Source of the DNA: Fretibacterium sp. OH1220_COT-178
Lineage (GTDB): Bacteria; Synergistota; Synergistia; Synergistales; Aminobacteriaceae
Assembly: GCF_003860125.1 (NCBI RefSeq)
Contig: NZ_RQYL01000002.1
Location: 1-64,000 of the forward strand
DNA: 64,000 nt
Direction: 5' to 3'
Each line of letters starts with the position of its first letter. The first letter of the stretch is position 1. Below are positions 7,305-24,608 of this stretch, piece by piece. The notes beneath the pieces are model-generated. The model was not told the origin of the DNA, did no database searches, and worked only from the letters and a program-made list of their open reading frames with translations. Position numbers and translations under genes: made by a program.

Positions 7305-9122
7305 TTAGTCGATGGGGGGCAGGATCCGAAAATTCTCGACGTCAACTAACCCCTTATCCGTTATTTTCCATTTCGGGCTGGTGGAAAGCGCCAAAAAGGA
7401 CAGATGCATGAAGGGCTCATGAAGCGCGCAGTTAAGCTGTGTCCGAGCGGTCTCCGAAAGACGCCTGATGCTTTCGGCCATCTCGGCACCCGACTGCTCG
7501 TCCGAGATGAGCCCCCCGACGGGCAGACGCAAACTGTCGAGAATCCTCCCCCGGTTGGCCAAGGCGATGCCGCCCCCCATTTCAATCACCCGATTGACCG
7601 CTGTCACCATATCCTCAAGGGAGCCCCCCGCCACGATGATGTTGTGCGTGTCGTGCGCCACGCTCTCCGCTATGGCCCCCTGCTTCATCCCGAAGCCTCG
7701 GACAAAGGCCTTGCCGATGTTGCCGTTGCGCCCGTAACGCTCGATACAGGCGATATACAGCACGTCGTTCTTCGGATCGCAGGAGACGAGCCCGCCCGAG
7801 ACGGGCAGGGAAACTTTCAGGGTATCCGTCAAATTCTGATCCGGAATGGCGACGATGCAGTTTCCCGTGGCCTGGGCGGCGTCGCTGCGGATCTCGAGGT
7901 CGGACCTCGAGAGAGGGGCCCTGCGGACGGAGTTCTTGACGTTATCGGGATAGACGTAGGGCGGAAGATCAACGAGCAGTTTTCCCTTGTGTGCGGTTAG
8001 TTTCCCCTCGATGAAGACGGCCTCGACCGTCATCTCGAAAAGATCGTCCAGGACGACGACATCGGCCAGCTTGCCGGGAGCCAGAGCACCGCGGTCCTCG
8101 AAGCGGAAGTAGGAGGCCGGATTGATCGTCACCATCTGTATAGCCTCAATCGGGTCCACACCCTGCCGGATGGTGCGCCTCACGATCTCATTCATATGCC
8201 CCAGATTACGGAGATCGTCGGCCACCATGTCGTCTGTCGCCAGGATACACCGGCGGGAGTCCAGGCCTTCCTCCGTCACTGCCCGGATGCACTCGGCCAT
8301 ATTCTTCTGCGTAGACCCCTCACGCATGAACACAAATACCCCCTGGCGCAATTTTTCCACACATTCCGCCTTGGTCGTCGTCTCGTGACAGGAGGTTCGG
8401 CCGCCGGTCACAAGGATGTGCGCGGCCAGCTCCGCCCCGAAGAGCTCCGGCGCGTTGCCGTCCACCGTTCCGTTCCGGTCCATGGCGTAGCTGCTGGATG
8501 CCATAAGATCGGTGATGATCTCCGGAGTATTGCGATAGACGTGCTTGGCGTTTGAAAATCCCTGCATCTCTCCAATGCCAATGATTTTGGGGTAATCCAG
8601 AAGAGCCTCGACGTCCTTCGAGGACACGTCGACCCCGGACGTCTCCAAGGCGGGACAGTCGGGGACAAGGCACGGGACCACCAAATAGACGTGGTTCGGC
8701 ACTGTGCCCGCCTCGTCCGCCATGGCCTTCATCCCCGCAGGCCCCAGGGCGTTGCCGATCTCGTGTGGGTCTGCAACGAGAGTCGTCGTCCCAGAGGGGA
8801 TCGAAAGCCGGGAGAACTCCGTGATTGTCAGCATACTGCTCTCAAAGTGCATATGGGAATCGATGAAGCCGGGGGACAGGTAGCGGCCTTCCACGTTGAC
8901 GGAAACCGTCTCCGGACCGACCAATTGACTGCAATCTCCGACCATGAGGATGTAACGCCCCTTGACAGCTACATCTCCGACATAAGTCTCGCGGGTCAGT
9001 GTATTGACAATAGTTCCGCCTACCAGAACCAGATCGGCATACCGGTCCTCGGACATCAGGACATCGACCATGGCGCGGTACTCCATGGTTCTCTTCAGAG
9101 ATTCGATCCTGCTCAAGAACAT
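7305..9122 (-). CDS. ade: Adenine deaminase
   Basis: This 605-residue protein is full length for the AdeC/YicP-type amidohydrolase that converts adenine to hypoxanthine and ammonia. The N-terminal beta-sandwich strand (ADLVLVGGTIVNTLT) leads to the metal motif SPGFIDSHMHFESS. Further conserved motifs are VADPHEIGNALG, IGIGEMQGF, RTSCHETT and TDDMVADDL. The C-terminal adenine-deaminase domain ends in MHLSFLALSTSPKWKITDKGLVD. GAGGAGG stands only 3 bases before ATG 9122; a TTG two codons later is better spaced and is an alternative start. It lies directly downstream of the microcompartment genes (36-base gap to the vertex gene), which suggests co-transcription and a purine link. Confidence 0.95.
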   Translation of the reverse strand: MFLSRIESLKRTMEYRAMVDVLMSEDRYADLVLVGGTIVNTLTRETYVGDVAVKGRYILMVGDCSQLVGPETVSVNVEGRYLSPGFIDSHMHFESSMLTITEFSRLSIPSGTTTLVADPHEIGNALGPAGMKAMADEAGTVPNHVYLVVPCLVPDCPALETSGVDVSSKDVEALLDYPKIIGIGEMQGFSNAKHVYRNTPEIITDLMASSSYAMDRNGTVDGNAPELFGAELAAHILVTGGRTSCHETTTKAECVEKLRQGVFVFMREGSTQKNMAECIRAVTEEGLDSRRCILATDDMVADDLRNLGHMNEIVRRTIRQGVDPIEAIQMVTINPASYFRFEDRGALAPGKLADVVVLDDLFEMTVEAVFIEGKLTAHKGKLLVDLPPYVYPDNVKNSVRRAPLSRSDLEIRSDAAQATGNCIVAIPDQNLTDTLKVSLPVSGGLVSCDPKNDVLYIACIERYGRNGNIGKAFVRGFGMKQGAIAESVAHDTHNIIVAGGSLEDMVTAVNRVIEMGGGIALANRGRILDSLRLPVGGLISDEQSGAEMAESIRRLSETARTQLNCALHEPFMHLSFLALSTSPKWKITDKGLVDVENFRILPPID

Positions 9123-9158: not shown

Positions 9159-9431
9159 TCAGCTGCCGTTCATGTCGAGGCTGTCCACGATACCGACGAT
9201 GGCTGCATCAATGGAAGCCGAAGTGTTGCACACCGCATTTCGTGAGGCCGCCCCCGAGACACAGAGGACGAGCTCACCCACTCCGGCCCCCACCGTATCG
9301 ACAGCGATTCGGGTATCACCGTAGGATTTGAGGTTCTTCTCCAGAAAACGCACGATCAGCAGCTTATGTCCGACGAGCGTATCGTTTTTTTTCGTCGACA
9401 CCACCGTGCCGACCACCTTAGCTATCTGCAT
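9159..9431 (-). CDS. Microcompartment vertex protein, EutN/CcmL family (BMC-P)
   Basis: The 90-residue protein has the EutN/CcmL fold, whose pentamers cap the vertices of bacterial microcompartments. It starts with the typical MQIAKVVGTVVSTKKNDTLVG and carries AVDTVGAGVGELVLCVSGAASR, the conserved core turn. Its start lies inside the 3' end of the upstream flavoprotein gene (14-base overlap), so the two are translationally coupled. It is the only vertex protein seen, which is enough for a closed shell with the three BMC-H proteins. Confidence 0.93.
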   Translation of the reverse strand: MQIAKVVGTVVSTKKNDTLVGHKLLIVRFLEKNLKSYGDTRIAVDTVGAGVGELVLCVSGAASRNAVCNTSASIDAAIVGIVDSLDMNGS

Positions 9432-10212
9432 GGCGAGGCACTCCCTCCCCGGAACAAACGATCAGCTCTATGCCCATCCTTTCAGCCGTTTCTCTTGCAA
9501 CATCCGTCACGATTGTGCCGTAGGGCAGGCGCCATTCTCCTCCTGGTGCGTGTTCCCGGACGTCCTTTCCCGTAACGACAAACCGCCGTTCCGGGACGGG
9601 AACAACGTCTTCCGCCGCTACAGGGGCAGAAGCACGGCGGAGTTGCTTTCTGAATCGCTCCAAGAGTACGGTGACGTAATTCCCCTGCTCTATGCCGTAA
9701 ACGCCAAGCCGGTCGATGCTTTCCGCATAGCCTTCATAAAGGGCCCTCAATGCCTCGTTTCCGGTCGGGGGGGCCGCCAGGCCCGAAAGATCGGCGTAGA
9801 TGTCGATCCCCCGCCACAGTCCCTCCAGAAATACTTGAGACCCCATATCATCCTGGAGCCCCAGGCAAATTTTTGCGGCGCTCCCGCGGTTGAGGACAGC
9901 TACGATACAGTCCACTCCGTCAAGAAAGGAATCCGGCATATCCTCTGACGCACTGTAGAATCGGCATTTTGCCGCCAGACCTCGAGAAGCCCGTATTTCC
10001 GGGGACGCGACGACATCCAGGCAACAGCCGAAGCGATACAAAACTGAAAGCTCCGCGAGAACCTGCCGTCCTGTCCTTACGGAGGCGGCCAGTACGACCA
10101 CAACCCGATACTTTTCCTGCCTTTCGCTGCGGAGGGGAGAGGAAGGCGACGTTGTACTGTCGTACCCGCTTATCAGATCGGGAATGCTCATCACTCCAGG
10201 AACCGACGGCAC
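9418..10212 (-). CDS. Microcompartment-associated flavoprotein-like protein
   Basis: The protein has 264 residues. Residues 35-190 (YRVVVVLAASVRTGRQVLAEL ... GVYGIEQ) look like a flavoprotein (HFCD/PF02441-like) Rossmann domain. The C-terminal 45 residues (RRFVVTGKDVREHAPGG...LPYGTIVTDVARETAERMGIEL) resemble a small module that I recall in several microcompartment proteins, including EutT-like ones, where it may act in assembly or targeting. GTG 10212 is chosen because GGGAGGG lies 8 bases upstream; a nearby ATG has no usable site. The gene sits between BMC-H and vertex genes. Whether it binds FMN and what it reduces are unknown. Confidence 0.65.
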   Translation of the reverse strand: MPSVPGVMSIPDLISGYDSTTSPSSPLRSERQEKYRVVVVLAASVRTGRQVLAELSVLYRFGCCLDVVASPEIRASRGLAAKCRFYSASEDMPDSFLDGVDCIVAVLNRGSAAKICLGLQDDMGSQVFLEGLWRGIDIYADLSGLAAPPTGNEALRALYEGYAESIDRLGVYGIEQGNYVTVLLERFRKQLRRASAPVAAEDVVPVPERRFVVTGKDVREHAPGGEWRLPYGTIVTDVARETAERMGIELIVCSGEGVPRHADS

Positions 10213-10273: not shown

Positions 10274-10561
10274 TCAATTCTCCGCCTGACGACCAGCCAA
10301 GATAACGCGCTCCACCTCCGCGTGCGGGCGCGGGATGACGTGGACGGAGTGCAGCTCGCCCACGGCCTTCGCAGCGGCCGCGCCGGCGTCCACCGCCGCC
10401 TTGACCGCACCGACGTCGCCGCGCACCATCACCGTAACCAGCCCAAAGCCGATCTTCTCGTAACCGGCGATCGTCACGCTCGCCGCCTTCACCATCGCGT
10501 CCGCGGCCTCGATAGCCCCAACAAGTCCCTTCGTCTCAATCAATCCCAGAGCTTCCGCCAT
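10274..10561 (-). CDS. BMC-H shell protein 1 (PduA/EutM-like)
   Basis: This 95-residue single-BMC-domain protein forms the hexagonal tiles of microcompartment shells. The sequence follows PduA/EutM closely: [29 protein letters not shown], then [28 protein letters not shown], then [12 protein letters not shown]. The pore loop reads Ile-Gly-Phe-Gly, with Phe39 where PduA has Ser. The pore should therefore be narrower and more hydrophobic. GGAGG precedes ATG 10561. Confidence 0.96.
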
Positions 10562-10615: not shown

Positions 10616-10906
10616 CTACCCCTGGAAACGAGCCCAAAGCCGCTTCAATTCCGCATCGGGCCTTGCGATCACCCGGGCGGAGAACACGGTTCCCACATCC
10701 TTTGCTGCGGCCGACGCGGCGTCGACGGCGGCCTGAACCGCTGCGACCTCCCCCTCGACACGGAGCGTCAGGCTGATCGCCTTGCCCACACCAATCACCT
10801 TCTCGCTGCCCAGGAAGGTCACATCCGCCGCCTTGAGCGCCGCGTCCAAGGCGGTCATGGCCGCCGTAAGTCCTAGCACCTCGATCAAGCCCAGAGCACC
10901 GTTCAT
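10616..10906 (-). CDS. BMC-H shell protein 2 (divergent)
   Basis: This 96-residue BMC-domain protein starts MNGALGLIEVLGLTAAMTALDAALKAADVTFLG and ends ARVIARPDAELKRLW. The pore region GSEKVIGVGKAISLTLRVEGEV has one extra residue and no Ser, so its pore differs from those of the other two tiles. It overlaps the linker gene by 4 bases, a sign of coupled translation. Several BMC-H paralogues with different pores are normal in one shell, each serving different substrates or acting as a structural spacer. Confidence 0.92.
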   Translation of the reverse strand: MNGALGLIEVLGLTAAMTALDAALKAADVTFLGSEKVIGVGKAISLTLRVEGEVAAVQAAVDAASAAAKDVGTVFSARVIARPDAELKRLWARFQG

Positions 10907-11289
10907 TGCCGGCCCTGCCCTTCCAGGCGACTAGCCAGGTCATTCAGATCGATCAGATCGATCGTTTTTTCCCCGCCCAAAGGGATTTTGCGGTTCGGAC
11001 ACCGCAGATTTCGCTCCTCCGGTTTTTCGGAGGGGGCGGGAATCTTGATCTCCCGCGCACCGCCAAAGGGCGGAGTCAGGTTTCGGCCTTCCGGGGAGCG
11101 GCGCACCGCCGCTTTTTCTGGAGGCTCCCCGGTTCTCCCGCCCCTTGCCAGGCGTCGGAGACGCTCCTCCTCGCTCCTGTTGAGATTGCAGAACGAGACT
11201 TCTTCCTCCGTGGAGGACGCCGAAGCACCCCCTGCCCGACGGGCGAGCTCCTTCATGACCTGTATCACCAATTCATTAGCCATCAGCAC
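10903..11289 (-). CDS. Putative disordered linker or cargo-scaffold protein of the microcompartment
   Basis: This 128-residue protein matches no enzyme family I recognise. It opens with an amphipathic helix (MANELVIQVMKELARRAG), which looks like the encapsulation peptides that tether cargo to BMC shells. A second short amphipathic helix closes it (KTIDLIDLNDLASRLEG). The roughly 85 residues between are rich in Glu, Arg, Pro, Gly and Ser and look disordered. Two nearby Cys-poor basic blocks could bind acidic partners. It lies between two BMC-H genes, overlapping one by 4 bases. The start may be GTG 11289 or ATG 11283. The role as a scaffold is inference. Confidence 0.6.
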   Translation of the reverse strand: MLMANELVIQVMKELARRAGGASASSTEEEVSFCNLNRSEEERLRRLARGGRTGEPPEKAAVRRSPEGRNLTPPFGGAREIKIPAPSEKPEERNLRCPNRKIPLGGEKTIDLIDLNDLASRLEGQGRQ

Positions 11290-11305
11290 TCACGCTCCTC
11301 CGCCG

Positions 11306-11587: not shown

Positions 11588-12964
11588 CTATCGGCGGCGG
11601 TCCACGCCGTCGGAAAAGTATCGGTCTATCGAGGACTTGACCTTATCGAATCCCGGAATGACGGCCGCCTCGTAAAGGGCAGCCTTATCCCCCAGGGGTT
11701 TGGTCGCGTCCAGCCCCATCTTGTCCGAGACGCCCCGCTCCATGTGAGAGGCCTCCAGCGGCGAGCCGAGGGCCCCCGATACCACGACCAGGTCCCGCGA
11801 GGCCTGAAAACGGGACGCCACGGCCGCCTCCACCTCCGCCATATTGTAGATATTCACGTCGTCGTCGACCACAACGACGTGCTTGATATCCTTATACGCT
11901 CCAAGCGTGCCCAGGATGGTGCTCTTCCCGTCCCCCTCGGCACGTTTCCTGATGGAGATCACCGCATGCAGCCGACAGCCTCCCCCGAGAGTCAGGTTGA
12001 CGTCTCGAACATCCACCGTATGAGCAAGTGCGGCGAAAATTTCTGCCTCCTTGATCATCCCATAGGCCAAATGCTCCTCCTTGCAGGGAAAGGCATGCTG
12101 AAAAATGGGGGCATTCCGGTGGGTCACCGCGGAGACCTCCATCACCGGGGCGGGAGCGACGGTGCTGTAATAGCCCATCAGCTCGGCGAAAGGCCCCTCG
12201 GGCTCCGCCCTCCCCGGCTCGATCTTGCCCTCAAGGACTATCTCCGCCCAAGCGGGCACCTCCAGATCGACCGTTCGGCACCGCACCAGTTCCAGGGGTT
12301 CGCCGCGCAGCGTGCTGTCTACCTCGTACTTGTCCAGCCCATATTTTCCGGACCCTATCTGGGAAGCCAGCAGAAAAGGTGCGTCGTATCCAAGGACGAC
12401 GGCGCATTCAAGAGGTCTGCCCCTTTCGGCACAACGTCGGATCTCGCCCAACAGGTGAGGAGAGGCCCCCGACACCAGGATATAGAGCTTGTTCCCCCCC
12501 AGCACCTGAATGCGTCTTACCGCCATCTGAATCTTTCCGGTCTCGGTGTCCCGGACCACAAACGCACTGGCACAAAGGTAAGGGGCCGCGTCCCTCTCGT
12601 TGGAGGTGGGGACGGGCAACATCTTGAGAAGATCGATCCCGGTCGTGACGACGTTTTCCTGAACCGGCCCACGCTCCAGCAACCTGGGTTTTGAGGGCAA
12701 TGATATAGCTTCCATCAGCTTGAACAGCCGTTTCTCCGTTGTTGTACCCAGCAAATCCAAAATGATCGAACGGTTCCCATAAACGGCCCCCACTACAGGT
12801 AGGTCCGATCCCTTGACGTTTCGAAACAAGATGGGTTGCTCGTTATTGAAGGCGCTGAGCACAGCGCCGAGCTCGAAGCGAGGATCGACCGGAACAGCAC
12901 ATTCCCGCAAGCGGTCCTGAGCCTTCAGGCGTTCCAACACGGCGCGCAACATCTGTCTCCCCAT
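11588..12964 (-). CDS. UbiD-family prenylated-FMN-dependent decarboxylase
   Basis: The 458-residue protein is of usual UbiD-family length. UbiD enzymes use prenylated FMN to decarboxylate (or carboxylate) aromatic or alpha,beta-unsaturated acids. The catalytic Glu-Arg-Glu set is recognisable: Arg150/151 in MAVRRIQVLGG, and Glu256 and Glu261 in PEGPFAELMGYYS, with the expected five-residue spacing. The C-terminal part contains VVVVDDDVNIYNMAEVEAA, also typical. ATG 12964 has GGAGG 6 bases upstream. An upstream in-frame ATG at 12994 overlaps the ubiX stop but lacks a good site. No separate encapsulation peptide is evident. Direct linkage to BMC-H genes is unusual. The substrate cannot be told. 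Confidence 0.9.
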   Translation of the reverse strand: MGRQMLRAVLERLKAQDRLRECAVPVDPRFELGAVLSAFNNEQPILFRNVKGSDLPVVGAVYGNRSIILDLLGTTTEKRLFKLMEAISLPSKPRLLERGPVQENVVTTGIDLLKMLPVPTSNERDAAPYLCASAFVVRDTETGKIQMAVRRIQVLGGNKLYILVSGASPHLLGEIRRCAERGRPLECAVVLGYDAPFLLASQIGSGKYGLDKYEVDSTLRGEPLELVRCRTVDLEVPAWAEIVLEGKIEPGRAEPEGPFAELMGYYSTVAPAPVMEVSAVTHRNAPIFQHAFPCKEEHLAYGMIKEAEIFAALAHTVDVRDVNLTLGGGCRLHAVISIRKRAEGDGKSTILGTLGAYKDIKHVVVVDDDVNIYNMAEVEAAVASRFQASRDLVVVSGALGSPLEASHMERGVSDKMGLDATKPLGDKAALYEAAVIPGFDKVKSSIDRYFSDGVDRRR

Positions 12965-12990
12965 GAAAACCCTCCGGTTTTTCCGTTCGT

Positions 12991-13569
12991 TCATTGTCTC
13001 TGGACGCCATGCCAGCGCCGGATCAGGTTATGCTCGATGCCCAGTGCGTCCAGAATTCGACCGGAGAAGTCGGTGATCATCTCCGCGATGCTTCCAGGAC
13101 CATGGTAGAAACCCGGAGACGCCGGCATCACCACGGCACCACTATGGGTAGCCCTGAGCATGTTCTCCAGGTGAACGGCACTCAGTGGAGACTCTCGGGT
13201 CACCAGCACCAGCGACCGACGCTCTTTCAGGGTCACGTCAGCCGCACGTGTGAGCAGCCCCTCCGAAAATCCCTGCGCGATCGAGGCGAGTGTCTTCATG
13301 GAACAGGGCACAACTACCATGCCGAAAGTCCTGAAAGAACCACCCGATATGGGAGCAGCAAGGTCGTCGTTCTCATAAAAACGGTCGGCATAATCCCTCA
13401 ATTCCTCCAGAGAGACCCCGCACTCATGATCCATCACGTAAGCCCCCATCCTGGAGACCACGACATGGGATTCGCACCCCAGAATGCGGAGCTGACGCAG
13501 CAACGCGAGAGCATAAACCGCGCCACTCCCCCCGGATATTCCAACCACAACCCTCAGATGATCTTTCAT
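12991..13569 (-). CDS. ubiX: UbiX-like flavin prenyltransferase
   Basis: This 192-residue HFCD-fold protein would make prenylated FMN from FMN and dimethylallyl phosphate, the cofactor UbiD needs. Conserved motifs are VVVGISGGSGAVYA (flavin phosphate loop), VVVPCSMKTLASIA, RAADVTLKERRSLVLVTRESPLS and HLENML. All fit UbiX/Pad1. It is the first gene of the ubiX-ubiD-BMC series and ends where ubiD begins, so enzyme and cofactor maker are co-expressed. GGGG precedes ATG 13569 at short distance. Confidence 0.95.
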   Translation of the reverse strand: MKDHLRVVVGISGGSGAVYALALLRQLRILGCESHVVVSRMGAYVMDHECGVSLEELRDYADRFYENDDLAAPISGGSFRTFGMVVVPCSMKTLASIAQGFSEGLLTRAADVTLKERRSLVLVTRESPLSAVHLENMLRATHSGAVVMPASPGFYHGPGSIAEMITDFSGRILDALGIEHNLIRRWHGVQRQ

Positions 13570-14000
13570 GAGCCCCTAATTTCCCCTCGCATTGAAGCCC
13601 CCGTAGTTTCCGGCTATGAAGGTAGGATGACAAATAAGATGTAAGACGGTCAAGAGTTATTTACAAAATCCTGCACGAAAATACGCATTGCGCATTGTAA
13701 CCACCAAGAACGGAAAGGCTCCGTTTCCGGTTACTGTCCAGAAAATCATAGCTCATCGAACAGGAGGCATTACGCTCTTCAACTTACAAGAAAATTCGAA
13801 CATGCCGTAGCCATATGTGATGACTGCGATGAATCTCCTCCTGTCGCTAAGGAGTCAAATTCGCACGTTTGTGGGTGTTCGTTTTGCGATGTTATTTCAC
13901 GGGCTTTTTTCTCCTCCCGGCTTACCTAGATTGCGAACAACCCTGTTATAAAAAACAACATAACATACACTTAATCATTCAAGACAATTTGATAGTCATA

Positions 14001-14014
14001 TTGATTTAAATCAA
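14001..14014. promoter_or_regulatory. FNR/CRP-type palindrome upstream of the ubiX-BMC series
   Basis: TTGATTTAAATCAA is a perfect palindrome and matches the FNR consensus TTGAT-N4-ATCAA exactly. It lies in the 511-base gene-free gap between the TRAP permease stop (14081) and ubiX (13569). A TATGTT at 13962-13967 and a TATAAC at 13945-13950 are possible -10 elements for minus-strand transcription. The rest of the gap is AT-rich and holds no gene I can support. Regulation by an FNR-family protein is inference. Confidence 0.45.
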
Positions 14015-14080
14015 CACGCTCCTAAGTGTATCACCAACCTACTCTCTCGAAGATACCTTATGATAACACTGTCGATTTTC

Positions 14081-15367
14081 TTAGAGCCGTCTTCCATAGA
14101 CCAATTGAGGAAGAAAGAGCGAAATAGACGGTACATAGGTGATGATGATAAGAGCAATAACGCTAATAATTACAAACGGCATAACCCCCTTAATGATAGT
14201 AACCATTGTATTGTTGGTAATAGGTTGAGCCACAAACAGGTTCATACCAAAAGGAGGAGTAAACATCCCTATGGCGGCATTGGCAACCATGATCACGCCA
14301 TAGTGGATCGGGCTGATCCCCAAGCCAATAGCAAGCGGATATAAAAGCGGTGCCATGATAACAATGGCGGAGGAGCCATCGATAAACATGCCGGCAACCA
14401 ATAAAATAACATTCGTGAGCAATAAAAACGTCACTTTTGTCACACTGGCGTGAATCAAACATTTGCTAAGGGCTTGAGGAACCTGCCCTACGGTCAGAAT
14501 CCAGCCAAAGGCAGAAGCCGCGGCTAGGAGCATCATGACCTGTGCCGTGGTTTCGGCGGAATCAATACAGGTTTTGACGAGTTTTTTCAAGTCCATTTCT
14601 TTGTATACAAACATGGAAACAAGGATGGCATAGACAGCTGAAACACCGGAAGCTTCCGTGGGGGTAAAGATGCCTCCGTAGATACCTCCCATAATGATAA
14701 TAGGAATGCCTAAAGCCCATGCAGCCTCTTTGGTAGCCTTGACACGCTCCTTCCATGACGTTTTCTGGTCTTGATAAATTCCTTTTTTATGAGCGTACCA
14801 AACAGAATATAACAGGTAGAGTAGGCCATAGAGGAGGCCTGCTCCGACCCCAGCCATAAATAGAGCTCCAACGGAGGCGCCGGTGACGGCGCCATAGATG
14901 ATCGCACTGATGCTAGGAGGGATGAGCAAAGCTACCGAACCTGAAGAAGTGATAAGCCCCGTGGTAAAACCGTTATCATAACCGCTTTTCAGCAGAGCGG
15001 GATACATTAAACCACCAATGGCCACTACTGTGGCAGGGGAGGAACCGGATACAGCACCGAAGAACATACATGCAGCTTCGGTAGAGAGAGCTAGTCCCCC
15101 TTTCAAATGCCCTACCCAAACTTGGACCCAAATCAAAATACGATTGGCGATACCACCGTTTTTCATAACATTGGCGCCTAAGATAAAGAAAGGTACCGAT
15201 ATTAGAGAAAACTTGTCGATGCCGCCAAGCATGCGTTGGACGATAGCCATCAAATTCATATTAGAAAACAAACCAAAAGACGATAAAGACGAGAAACTGA
15301 GAGCGACAAAAACTGGTGCTGCAAAAAACAGCATTAAAAAAAGAAGAAGAAATAACGCGGCTATCAA
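14081..15367 (-). CDS. dctM: TRAP transporter large permease (DctM family)
   Basis: The 428-residue protein has about 12 membrane segments and is the transport subunit of a tripartite ATP-independent periplasmic transporter. Family features are the N-terminal LFLMLFFAAPVFVAL, the central SGSSPATVVAIGGLMYPALLKSGYDNGFTTGLI, GGIYGGIFTPTEASGVSAVYA, and the C-terminal PFGMNLFVAQP. It starts at TTG 15367 after GGAAGGGGG. It is last of three genes in the order P-Q-M. The operon is much more AT-rich than its neighbours. TRAP systems carry organic acids; the exact one is unknown. Confidence 0.95.
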   Translation of the reverse strand: MIAALFLLLFLMLFFAAPVFVALSFSSLSSFGLFSNMNLMAIVQRMLGGIDKFSLISVPFFILGANVMKNGGIANRILIWVQVWVGHLKGGLALSTEAACMFFGAVSGSSPATVVAIGGLMYPALLKSGYDNGFTTGLITSSGSVALLIPPSISAIIYGAVTGASVGALFMAGVGAGLLYGLLYLLYSVWYAHKKGIYQDQKTSWKERVKATKEAAWALGIPIIIMGGIYGGIFTPTEASGVSAVYAILVSMFVYKEMDLKKLVKTCIDSAETTAQVMMLLAAASAFGWILTVGQVPQALSKCLIHASVTKVTFLLLTNVILLVAGMFIDGSSAIVIMAPLLYPLAIGLGISPIHYGVIMVANAAIGMFTPPFGMNLFVAQPITNNTMVTIIKGVMPFVIISVIALIIITYVPSISLFLPQLVYGRRL

Positions 15368-21838: not shown

Positions 21839-22510
21839 TCAGCCGATCAGTTCCCGAACGGCATGAGCGGCGATCCCCCGCCCCGAAATGGCCGGAACCC
21901 CTGCTATTCTGCGCGCCAGCGCCTTCATGGACTCGGTGTACCCGATGCAGTCGAGGATCAGAAGCTCCGCGCCCCATCGTTTGAGCTCCATGGCGGCTCG
22001 CCCCACGGCCTCGTCGGCGCCGGCGTAGGGGGAGGCCGGTACGGCCCGGACCGCCCCCCCGAGCGCACTCCATCGCCGCTCGGCCTGAGGAACCTGCTCC
22101 GGGGATGGGATGAGGATCCCCAGCCGTCTTCCCTCCGCAACCGCGCTCACCGTGTGGAAGAGGAGCCTCTGCGGCCGAATCAGCAGTCCGCTCTCCTCGA
22201 GCTCCGCAAATTCGCCGGTGCAGAGCAGCAGCACCAGGGAGACCCCGGCGCCGAAGTGCTCCTTGATCCGCTCGACGACCCTAGGGGTGATATGGCGTTC
22301 GGCGACCTGTACGGACGCCCCATCCGCCAAACGGGTCACGAGGACATAGTCGTCCCCCTTTGGAGCCAAGTCCGCAATCTCCTCCCGAGAAAGCCCGTCC
22401 AGAGCCCCGGACTCCTTCAGGACGACATCGCCCAGGATGGCGGAGATCTCCGGGACCACGTCCGTTCGCGGGGACTGGCCGATCGTCACCGTGCCGACAA
22501 TGCGTTCCAT
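21839..22510 (-). CDS. AroM-family protein
   Basis: The 223-residue protein belongs to the AroM family (racemase-like fold, function unproven). It starts MERIVGTVTIGQSPRTDVVPEI, the family hallmark, and contains LVTRLADGASVQVAERHI and ILDCIGYTESMK with a conserved Cys. ATG 22510 has GGAGG about 9 bases upstream; the frame is open further up but has no site. It is the last gene of the ten-gene Dpp/OPT operon, after DUF1177. Confidence 0.88.
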   Translation of the reverse strand: MERIVGTVTIGQSPRTDVVPEISAILGDVVLKESGALDGLSREEIADLAPKGDDYVLVTRLADGASVQVAERHITPRVVERIKEHFGAGVSLVLLLCTGEFAELEESGLLIRPQRLLFHTVSAVAEGRRLGILIPSPEQVPQAERRWSALGGAVRAVPASPYAGADEAVGRAAMELKRWGAELLILDCIGYTESMKALARRIAGVPAISGRGIAAHAVRELIG

Positions 22511-22586
22511 CAAAGGATCCCTCCTCGACCGGAGCGGCTCCGTCTTTTCCCGGCAGTTCCGGGAAAAGACGGACGACCGCACATCT

Positions 22587-23528
22587 TCAGTTCCTTCCCA
22601 GCGTCTGCAGGTGCTTCATCGGCCCGTACAGTTTGAGGAGCCGTTCAAATTCCAGGGGATCGTAAAAACGCAGTTTTCCCTCCCCGAAGGCCTTGCCCAC
22701 CTCGATGGCAAACCGCACGACCGCCTCGATATCCGACACCTGGGAGGCCCCCGTCGCACACCCCGGTACGGCTGTCTCCGCGGTCAGAGCCACCCCCACG
22801 ACCGGCGCTCCGGTCGCCGTACAGGGCTGCAGGATGCTGTTCAGATGATAGAGACCGTTTCCGTAGGGCGTGATGTCCTGGGTGGTGATCGGAAAGACCA
22901 CCGGTGCCTTGCCCGTCACGTAGCTCATGACGTCGAGCAGATCCTCGGCGGTCCGCAGAATGTAGCCCTCCTTTACCGTAGGAGAGATGGCGAAACCCCG
23001 GTGGTTGATCACCCTGTTGCCGCGCGTCGTGTCGATCGAGAGCACCGCGTCGAGGTCCGGGTTCATCTCCTCCGCGTTCGCGATCTGCATGTTGATCGGA
23101 GAATCCATGAAGGGGACGGGGTCGTGCGGCCGCGTCGGGGCGTCGGGGCATATATGCGTGGAGACGAAGACGTCTCCCTCCAACAGATCCCCCAGTTTTG
23201 CCATCGCGCCAAGCTTCAGGGCGACCGCAACAGCGGCCACGGCTCCGTCCGCGTCAGAGACAAGCCCGATCCTTTCCGGACGTGCCCCTATGCCGCCCAG
23301 ACGGCCGACAATCCCCAGAGTGGGAGCCGCACCGCCGCCGCGTTTTCCCTTTTTCCCCTCAAACCACACCTTGACAAAATCCGTGTGCCCATTGGGCCCC
23401 TCGACGGTCTTGACCTCGATCGCCTCGGCCCCAATCCCGACCTCCATCAACGCCCTTCGGACGTCCTTCCCGCACACCGAGGGGCTGTCCAGCAATTCAT
23501 AGGACTCCATCACATATTTTATGGACAT
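22587..23528 (-). CDS. DUF1177-family protein
   Basis: The 313-residue protein matches the DUF1177 family by layout. It shows VMESYELLDSPSVCGKDV, EGPNGHTDFVKVWFEG, FVSTHICPDAPTRPHDPVPFMDSP and SIDTTRGNRVINHRGFAISPTVKEGYIL. The His and Asp residues in the middle could bind a metal. Function is not known. It sits between DUF917 and AroM genes, with GGAGG 6 bases before ATG 23528. Confidence 0.88.
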   Translation of the reverse strand: MSIKYVMESYELLDSPSVCGKDVRRALMEVGIGAEAIEVKTVEGPNGHTDFVKVWFEGKKGKRGGGAAPTLGIVGRLGGIGARPERIGLVSDADGAVAAVAVALKLGAMAKLGDLLEGDVFVSTHICPDAPTRPHDPVPFMDSPINMQIANAEEMNPDLDAVLSIDTTRGNRVINHRGFAISPTVKEGYILRTAEDLLDVMSYVTGKAPVVFPITTQDITPYGNGLYHLNSILQPCTATGAPVVGVALTAETAVPGCATGASQVSDIEAVVRFAIEVGKAFGEGKLRFYDPLEFERLLKLYGPMKHLQTLGRN

Positions 23529-23543
23529 CGTTTGCCTCCCGAA

Positions 23544-24608
23544 TCACACAATAGTCTTTCCCACAATGGGCTCGACGGCGCGCAGCAGCTCCTCGCAGCG
23601 CATCCCCTCCCCCAGGATCAGCCGGTCCGCGGGGACGTGGATCACGAACACGCGGTCCCCTTTCTGCAGCTCCGCAGTCGCGACGGGCAGACCATCATCC
23701 TCACGGAGCGTCGCGATGAGGTCCGGGAAGGTTCCGATCCGTCTCCCGCAGACTTCCAAGGTCATGTACTCGTTCCAAAACGTCGCTTCACAGGTCCCGA
23801 GAAGAACCCGACCGACATCGAAGCCTCCCCGGGTCTCCAGGGTCACCTCCGTAACCTCCGAACGCAATACCACCGAACCGTCCAGGAACCCCACGACCGA
23901 ACGCGCCACAGCCTCTCCCCCATCCGCCCGAGCGTCCATCATGCGCCCCCCGAGCGCAATGGCCTGCCTCAGAGCACCGGGGGCACCGAACTGTCTTGCG
24001 TAGGAGGCCTTGACGGGATTCCGGGCGACGGCTACGAGCCCTCCGGCCTTCTCGGCCGCAATCCGCACCATGGAGGCCGCCGTCTCGAGTCTTCCCGCAA
24101 CGAAGGTCTCAAGATACAGCCCCCGCTCCGGATTTCCTCCCACGGCGGCCTGGCGGGACAGGTAATCGGGGTCTCGGTGCAGCCCCATGGAGCCCATGAT
24201 CCCCGTCGGATGAGCCCTGCCGTTGCACAGGGCGTCGACCACGGGCAGTCCCATCAGAGCGGCGGACAGCCAGCCGTTCGTGATGGAGCTTCCCCCGCAC
24301 TCGTTCGGGATGAACCCTCCGGGACGCGGACAGCCGTTCTCCATAAGCAGCTCCACGGCCCGAACGTAGTCCTGTGGGAGGGCCTGCGCCTCCTTGGCCG
24401 CAGGGGCGCCGACCGCCGAGCCCGTCACAAGAATCGTATCGGGGTCTACTTCGTCCGCATCCAATAGCCGGACCTCCCCCAGAGACAGGGCACGTTCCGC
24501 GTTCAATCGTCCCTTCGACAGGCTCCCTCCTCCCCCGCCGCCCAAAACGGCGCCGCCGAGCAATGCGGCCTCGGCCACCTCCCTGGTGAGCGTCGTCACC
24601 GGCTTCAT
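23544..24608 (-). CDS. DUF917-family protein
   Basis: The 354-residue protein is of the DUF917 family, related to the C-terminal parts of hydantoinase-type proteins and to S-methyl-thiohydantoin desulfurase. Motifs are LLGGAVLGGGGGGSLSKG, GFIPNECGGSSITNGWLSAALMGLPVVDA, CNGRAHPTGIMGSMGL and VHVPADRLILG. It overlaps the OPT gene by 4 bases. It could act on a hydantoin, lactam or cyclic amide brought in by the transporters. This is inferred from context. Confidence 0.88.
   Translation of the reverse strand: MKPVTTLTREVAEAALLGGAVLGGGGGGSLSKGRLNAERALSLGEVRLLDADEVDPDTILVTGSAVGAPAAKEAQALPQDYVRAVELLMENGCPRPGGFIPNECGGSSITNGWLSAALMGLPVVDALCNGRAHPTGIMGSMGLHRDPDYLSRQAAVGGNPERGLYLETFVAGRLETAASMVRIAAEKAGGLVAVARNPVKASYARQFGAPGALRQAIALGGRMMDARADGGEAVARSVVGFLDGSVVLRSEVTEVTLETRGGFDVGRVLLGTCEATFWNEYMTLEVCGRRIGTFPDLIATLREDDGLPVATAELQKGDRVFVIHVPADRLILGEGMRCEELLRAVEPIVGKTIV

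Follow-up and report, generated by a model that had tools for sequence, protein, structure and literature searches.

LINK, a family of short three-motif proteins encoded in Xau/BUF1 microcompartment loci and putative core-to-shell adaptors

Between two shell genes of a bacterial microcompartment (BMC) operon lies a short gene, here named LINK, whose product belongs to a protein family that is near-universal in, and specific to, the Xau/BUF1 loci examined. We favour, with modest confidence, the reading that LINK is a cargo-free structural adaptor that tethers the core of the Xau (BUF1) compartment to its shell, with shell proteins and UbiD as putative binding partners. The compartment type is already known, and the LINK family is a previously unnamed part of that organelle. 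The family was not found described in the literature or databases searched, and the main texts of the Xau/BUF papers searched make no mention of a scaffold protein. The window referred to throughout is the whole stretch of 64,000 nucleotides that was analysed.

Locus organization and compartment type

The operon runs from UbiX to AdeC with close gene packing on the − strand of the window and comprises the following features:

12991..13569 (− strand): UbiX flavin prenyltransferase (TIGR00421)
11588..12994 (− strand): UbiD-family decarboxylase, predicted XauD (TIGR00148; pathway role predicted in PMC6620236)
11306..11584 (− strand): BMC-H1 shell hexamer protein (PF00936; syntenic in ~70 loci)
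10903..11283 (− strand): LINK, CDS with stop codon, 126 aa
10616..10906 (− strand): BMC-H2 shell hexamer protein (PF00936)
10274..10561 (− strand): BMC-H3 shell hexamer protein (PF00936)
9418..10212 (− strand): P264, flavoprotein (UbiX/CoaC-fold) homologue of 264 codons
9159..9431 (− strand): BMC-P (EutN/CcmL) pentamer (PF03319)
7305..9122 (− strand): AdeC, adenine-deaminase-like amidohydrolase (PF13382, PF01979)

An earlier sequence-only reading had placed the LINK protein between two BMC-H genes, and both neighbours do match PF00936; the LINK stop codon and the BMC-H2 start overlap by 4 bases. Around the operon lie two M20 hydrolases, FtcD, transporters, and a CdaR-type regulator. The gene content of the locus is that of the BUF locus of Axen 2014 (PMC4207490). 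A locus of the BUF type was predicted to encode a xanthine utilization (Xau) compartment by Ravcheev 2019 (PMC6620236), who assigned the decarboxylase as XauD and included a formimidoyltransferase, and BUF1 and Xau have been equated (PMC8156839). The Xau/BUF1 type is defined by BMC shell genes together with a UbiD-type decarboxylase, amidohydrolases/deaminase, and a formiminotransferase, in the absence of an aldehyde dehydrogenase (Axen 2014; Ravcheev 2019). The window holds three BMC-H genes, BMC-P, UbiD, AdeC, the two M20 genes, and FtcD, and no aldehyde dehydrogenase was found among the operon proteins scanned. The compartment is thought to serve in the breakdown of xanthine.

Matches of a UbiD alignment across 84,980 species genomes yielded 74 loci, in ~70 of which the gene order UbiX, UbiD, BMC-H1, (LINK), BMC-H2, BMC-H3, flavoprotein, BMC-P, AdeC is repeated. 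The taxa carrying the locus are mostly Clostridia and Tissierellia, with Synergistales and two Deltaproteobacteria MAGs also represented.

The LINK gene and its predicted structure

The LINK open reading frame (10903..11289, − strand) could start at ATG 11283 or GTG 11289, of which ATG 11283 is the likely start because the N-terminus of the family is conserved as M-[AV]-N-x-L. The following elements were delineated:

11295..11301 (− strand): Shine-Dalgarno-like GGAGGAG upstream of LINK, read from the sequence
11236..11283 (− strand): motif I, residues 1–16, MANELVIQVMKELARR, N-terminal helix resembling an encapsulation peptide (EP) (conserved columns; AF2 helix 4–16)
11140..11187 (− strand): motif II, residues 33–48, NLNRSEEERLRRLARG, middle helix (conserved columns; AF2 helix 36–46)
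10954..11139 (− strand): spacer, residues 49–110, polar, variable, of low hydrophobicity, and predicted to be coil
10915..10953 (− strand): motif III and C-terminal helix, residues 111–123, IDLNDLASRLEGQ (conserved columns; AF2 helix 113–123)

When modelled as a single chain with the family alignment in AlphaFold2 (AF2), LINK forms three helices, at residues 4–16 (block pLDDT ~90), 36–46 (79), and 113–123 (88), and is coil elsewhere, the coil that follows helix 4–16 being of low confidence; the pTM is 0.19, and a globular domain is absent from the model. The helices that the sequence-only reading had proposed at both ends are thus recovered. The ~85 disordered residues that it had placed between them are coil as supposed but not uninterrupted, and since the third helix falls within them they are better described as a conserved middle motif flanked by two spacers.

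Encapsulation peptides consist of a terminal helix of ~16 residues (range ~15–20) on a flexible linker, and LINK has a layout of this type, with a terminal helix (AF2 helix 4–16) followed by low-confidence coil. Encapsulation peptides sit on a cargo enzyme, however, whereas the LINK helix has no cargo enzyme attached, and no cargo-enzyme domain was detected in LINK by Pfam, NCBIfam, or AF2. The hydrophobic moment (muH) of the window motif I helix is 0.63, a value reached by 6% of shuffles; across the family the median P is 0.37 and most members do not rise above shuffles. The known PduP peptide does not do so either, and the moment is uninformative as a mark of encapsulation peptides.

A protein family recovered by synteny

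BLAST and tblastn searches with LINK alone, against its own genome and 83 genomes of its taxonomic family, returned only noise; relatives were found through synteny. Except in Carboxydothermus, every complete locus has a short ORF of 70–255 residues between BMC-H1 and BMC-H2, and three motifs are common to the 70 members aligned: motif I at the N-terminus (M-[AV]-N-P-L-[AT]-[RK]-x-[IV]-M-n-N-[IVL]), motif II in the middle (N-L-x-x-[KR]-E-E-x-[LI]-[LI]-x-[DE]-[IL]-I), and motif III near the C-terminus ([IVM]-[TS]-L-[DE]-[ED]-L-A). Identity of members to the window LINK is 31–33% in the motifs versus 8–12% in the spacers, which are polar (hydrophobic content 19%, versus 40% in the motifs), and mean column identity over the whole family is 13%. 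The window LINK scored 25.7 bits (E 6.7e-10, Z = 1) with a family HMM from which it had been left out, compared with 6.8 bits for the best of 2000 shuffles and 2.3 bits for the next of 505 window ORFs. The motifs of the window LINK likewise stood out from shuffles in two comparisons with the member left out, the first with position-specific scoring matrices (PSSMs) (P 0.0002 and 0.002 for motif I, 0.006 and 0.03 for motif II, and 0.028 and 0.03 for motif III). Lying in the slot between BMC-H1 and BMC-H2 and carrying motifs I, II, and III, by which the family is defined, the window LINK is by its sequence a true, though divergent, member.

None of the 70 members could be placed in a Pfam, NCBIfam, or PDB family, which bears out the earlier impression that no described family has this sequence, and the family alignment contains no conserved catalytic residues. 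Scattered Pfam and NCBIfam matches of single members, and a possible homology to coiled coils (PDB profile matches at E ≥ 0.25), were dismissed as helical low-complexity noise.

The two end helices put forward in the sequence-only reading proved to be conserved, with motifs I and III kept across the family, including three divergent members (L131, L132, L195) in which motif II is undetectable; the two ends therefore form the irreducible core of the LINK design. Motif I is divergent in the Caloramator members. Profile comparison of motif I with motifs II and III gave no convincing relation, and no clear copy of motif II or motif III was found in the subset of operon proteins scanned. A second copy of motif III is present in 10 of the 70 members. 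Two LINKs are unusually long, with 203 aa (L197:6177-6788) and 255 aa (L076:5361-6125), and hold several copies of motif III (by eye in L197); the existence of long members with a repeated motif III suggests a tunable valency.

Occurrence and locus specificity

A survey of 249 genomes from a single Firmicutes order gave LINK profile matches in 43 and Xau-type UbiD matches in 46, and all 43 genomes with a LINK match also carry Xau-type UbiD. Two genomes with Xau-type UbiD and no profile match (G107, G325) nonetheless have a divergent LINK in the correct slot, and G224 (locus L196) has UbiD and UbiX homologues, no BMC genes nearby, and no LINK. LINK is present in 45/45 genomes of this order with a Xau locus versus 0/204 without one, a contrast for which a formal P value would exaggerate independence because the genomes are related. 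Of 188 genomes from the phylum to which the window belongs, three contain the LINK family, and all three have a Xau locus; BMC genes are present in 17 of 83 genomes of its taxonomic family.

The profile search proposed with the sequence-only reading tied the homologues to BMC loci, at least two BMC-H genes lying beside LINK in all 55 loci fetched by the profile. The possibility that homologues would also lie away from BMC genes found no support in 32 locus-carrying genomes, each of which had one significant LINK region, always at the locus, except those of L132 (divergent) and L134 (replaced), where there was no significant match. LINK is no singleton: virtually all Xau loci examined contain a member of the family.

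A motif shared with the operon flavoprotein

P264 is a flavoprotein of the UbiX/EpiD/CoaC fold (PF02441 in 33/40 orthologues; Foldseek), and its orthologues have a flexible helix at the N-terminus, arranged as in encapsulated cargo proteins. The motif I profile matched the P264 N-terminal profile in hhalign with a score of 15.3 (P 1.6e-4), which none of 200 column-permuted profiles reached (maximum 11.6). The same profile did not match the N-termini of UbiD, UbiX, AdeC, EutN, FtcD, or BMC-H in hhalign, and motifs II and III showed no convincing relation to the P264 N-terminus. Unlike the profile comparison, pairwise comparison of LINK and P264 within genomes was mostly not significant (P < 0.05 in 10 of 43). 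The two N-termini are almost identical in L100 (MANPLAKSILGNISERL and MSRPLVKEILTDITNRI), and such pairs occur in a few genomes. Most P264 orthologues carry a motif-I-type N-terminal helix; the P264 of the window has no such helix. P264 may act in the lumen as a carrier that supplies UbiD with FMN or prFMN. Some P264 proteins have a PduM-like C-terminal tail, with a weak match to PF15953 ('PDU_like') in 7 of 40 members.

Replacement in Carboxydothermus

In Carboxydothermus islandicus (L134) the LINK family is absent genome-wide, and the slot is occupied by another protein:

11642-12613 (L134): LINK-slot protein with the N-helix MENLVDKIVSEVLNRQG, a linker of ~110 residues, and two BMC domains (BMC-T)

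In layout this shell protein resembles PduB, its N-terminal helix being joined to the body through a long linker. The similarity of its N-helix to the motif I model is weak, 7 of 819 shuffles being as good. LINK and a PduB-type tether appear to have been swapped in Carboxydothermus, and since the slot there holds a shell-embedded BMC-T with such a helix, a shell link is suggested for LINK. The same locus has an extra gene (13342-14151) that is EutJ/chaperone-like by eye.

A proposed tether, its alternatives, and known systems

As proposed, LINK would act as a disordered chain that has no catalytic domain and bears an EP-type N-helix, a middle helix, and a short C-terminal helical motif. One end would join the enzyme core and the other end or the middle would join shell hexamers, so that core and shell would be tethered during assembly; the N-helix may bind the flavoprotein-enzyme core, or the site used by the flavoprotein's own helix, or the direction may be the reverse. 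From the sequences and the model we infer the assignment of motifs to partners, the function of the N-helix as an encapsulation peptide, and a tethering role beyond nucleation. A separate adaptor would be needed because the UbiD, UbiX, and AdeC orthologues have no obvious encapsulation-peptide or other targeting extension. The tether reading is supported by the three conserved motifs and variable polar spacers of 70 syntenic members, by the AF2 model of three helices in coil with no domain or known family, by the confinement of LINK to Xau loci and its near-universality there, by the match of the motif I profile to the N-terminus of the operon flavoprotein, by the PduB-layout protein in the L134 slot, and by the duplication of motif III, as in multivalent scaffolds. 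Against it stand the hydrophobic moment of motif I, which in most members is no higher than that of shuffles (though PduP fails likewise), the weak resemblance between motif I and the N-helix of L134, the lack of the shared helix in the window flavoprotein, and the divergent motif I of Caloramator.

The strongest alternative is that LINK nucleates the core: its helices would bundle with one another and with the flavoprotein helix and condense the enzymes before shell formation, with no contact with the shell. The presence of motif I in both LINK and the flavoprotein N-terminus is compatible with this, as is the report of encapsulation peptides as trimeric bundles that drive condensates (PMC12339742), but the shell-embedded BMC-T in Carboxydothermus suggests a shell link and motif I is unlike motifs II and III, and we regard nucleation alone as unlikely. 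Less probable still is an assembly factor acting solely on BMC-H1/BMC-H2 sheets, as in edge or curvature control, with no enzyme contact: LINK does always lie between these two genes, overlapping BMC-H2 in the window, but the motif common to the flavoprotein would be left unexplained. We give little credence to a non-structural accessory of the decarboxylase that would aid, for example, the transfer of prenylated FMN from UbiX to UbiD; both genes co-occur with LINK in every locus and the LINK operon encodes a UbiX-fold flavoprotein, yet G224 retains UbiD and UbiX homologues without BMC genes nearby and without LINK, and LINK has neither a domain nor conserved catalytic residues. That LINK is a spurious or non-functional intergenic ORF, which its low overall identity and lack of BLAST homologues might have indicated, is refuted by motifs kept across phyla in a single slot, by an HMM score far above those of shuffles, and by the perfect co-occurrence of LINK and the locus.

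The tether reading has parallels in known systems. PduB binds the core with its N-terminus and the shell with its body (PMC12108088); its N-terminal extension resembles LINK in having a terminal helix and a flexible linker, but PduB carries BMC domains, whereas LINK has no PF00936 domain and would bind the shell, if at all, only via short motifs. CsoS2 binds Rubisco with its N-terminal helices and the shell with other repeats (PMC11365436). It is disordered with short repeated motifs, and the counterpart in LINK is a set of three motifs, of which the C-terminal one is doubled in some members; CsoS2 is nevertheless ~90 kDa with VTG/Y repeats, while LINK has 70-255 aa, other motifs, and an unrelated sequence, with no Pfam match to CsoS2 among the 70 members. 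CcmM/CcmN form an adaptor in which a terminal encapsulation peptide recruits the shell to the condensed core (PMC12339742), and LINK, though similarly an adaptor with a terminal helix, has no folded domain at all. Lacking a BMC domain, a CsoS2 match, and a folded domain, LINK falls outside the PduB, CsoS2, and CcmN families. PduM, a structural protein of low abundance whose N-terminus carries a signal helix, occurs only in its own BMC type and is needed for the core-shell connection (PMC12108088); LINK does not have its PF15953 domain, which the operon flavoprotein matches weakly instead.

More tentatively, and with doubt outweighing conviction, LINK may be the first of a class of dedicated scaffolds in catabolic BMCs that are disordered, carry several motifs, and have no cargo. 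In this it would be convergent with CsoS2, core and shell having helices of their own and valency being tuned by motif III duplication. The lack of an aldehyde core has led to the proposal that Xau/BUF1 represents a third functional paradigm among microcompartments. If the tether reading is true, the retention of such a core in its shell would be accounted for by a dedicated three-motif adaptor, LINK would represent an evolutionary alternative to PduB-type tethering, and its separable core- and shell-binding motifs would offer a compact natural toolkit for engineering; the adaptor reading also opens a cryptic compartment to direct testing.

Other features of the window and related loci

The UbiD proteins of Xau loci end in a common tail, IPG[YF][ED]k.iDI.KYF (window 11588-11640), a possible docking tail. 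In many Firmicutes Xau loci (such as L075, L085, L090, and L110) BMC-H2 has a lysine/glutamate-rich C-terminal tail of 20–45 residues; the BMC-H2 of the window has no such tail. A BMC-H3 query against viral contigs matched one contig (L062). The source genome has at least two more BMC loci, with other BMC-domain genes (G000:C1:170042-178856 and G000:C46:3354-6265), and a 676-aa ORF in the window (22437-24467, + strand) has no Pfam or NCBIfam match.
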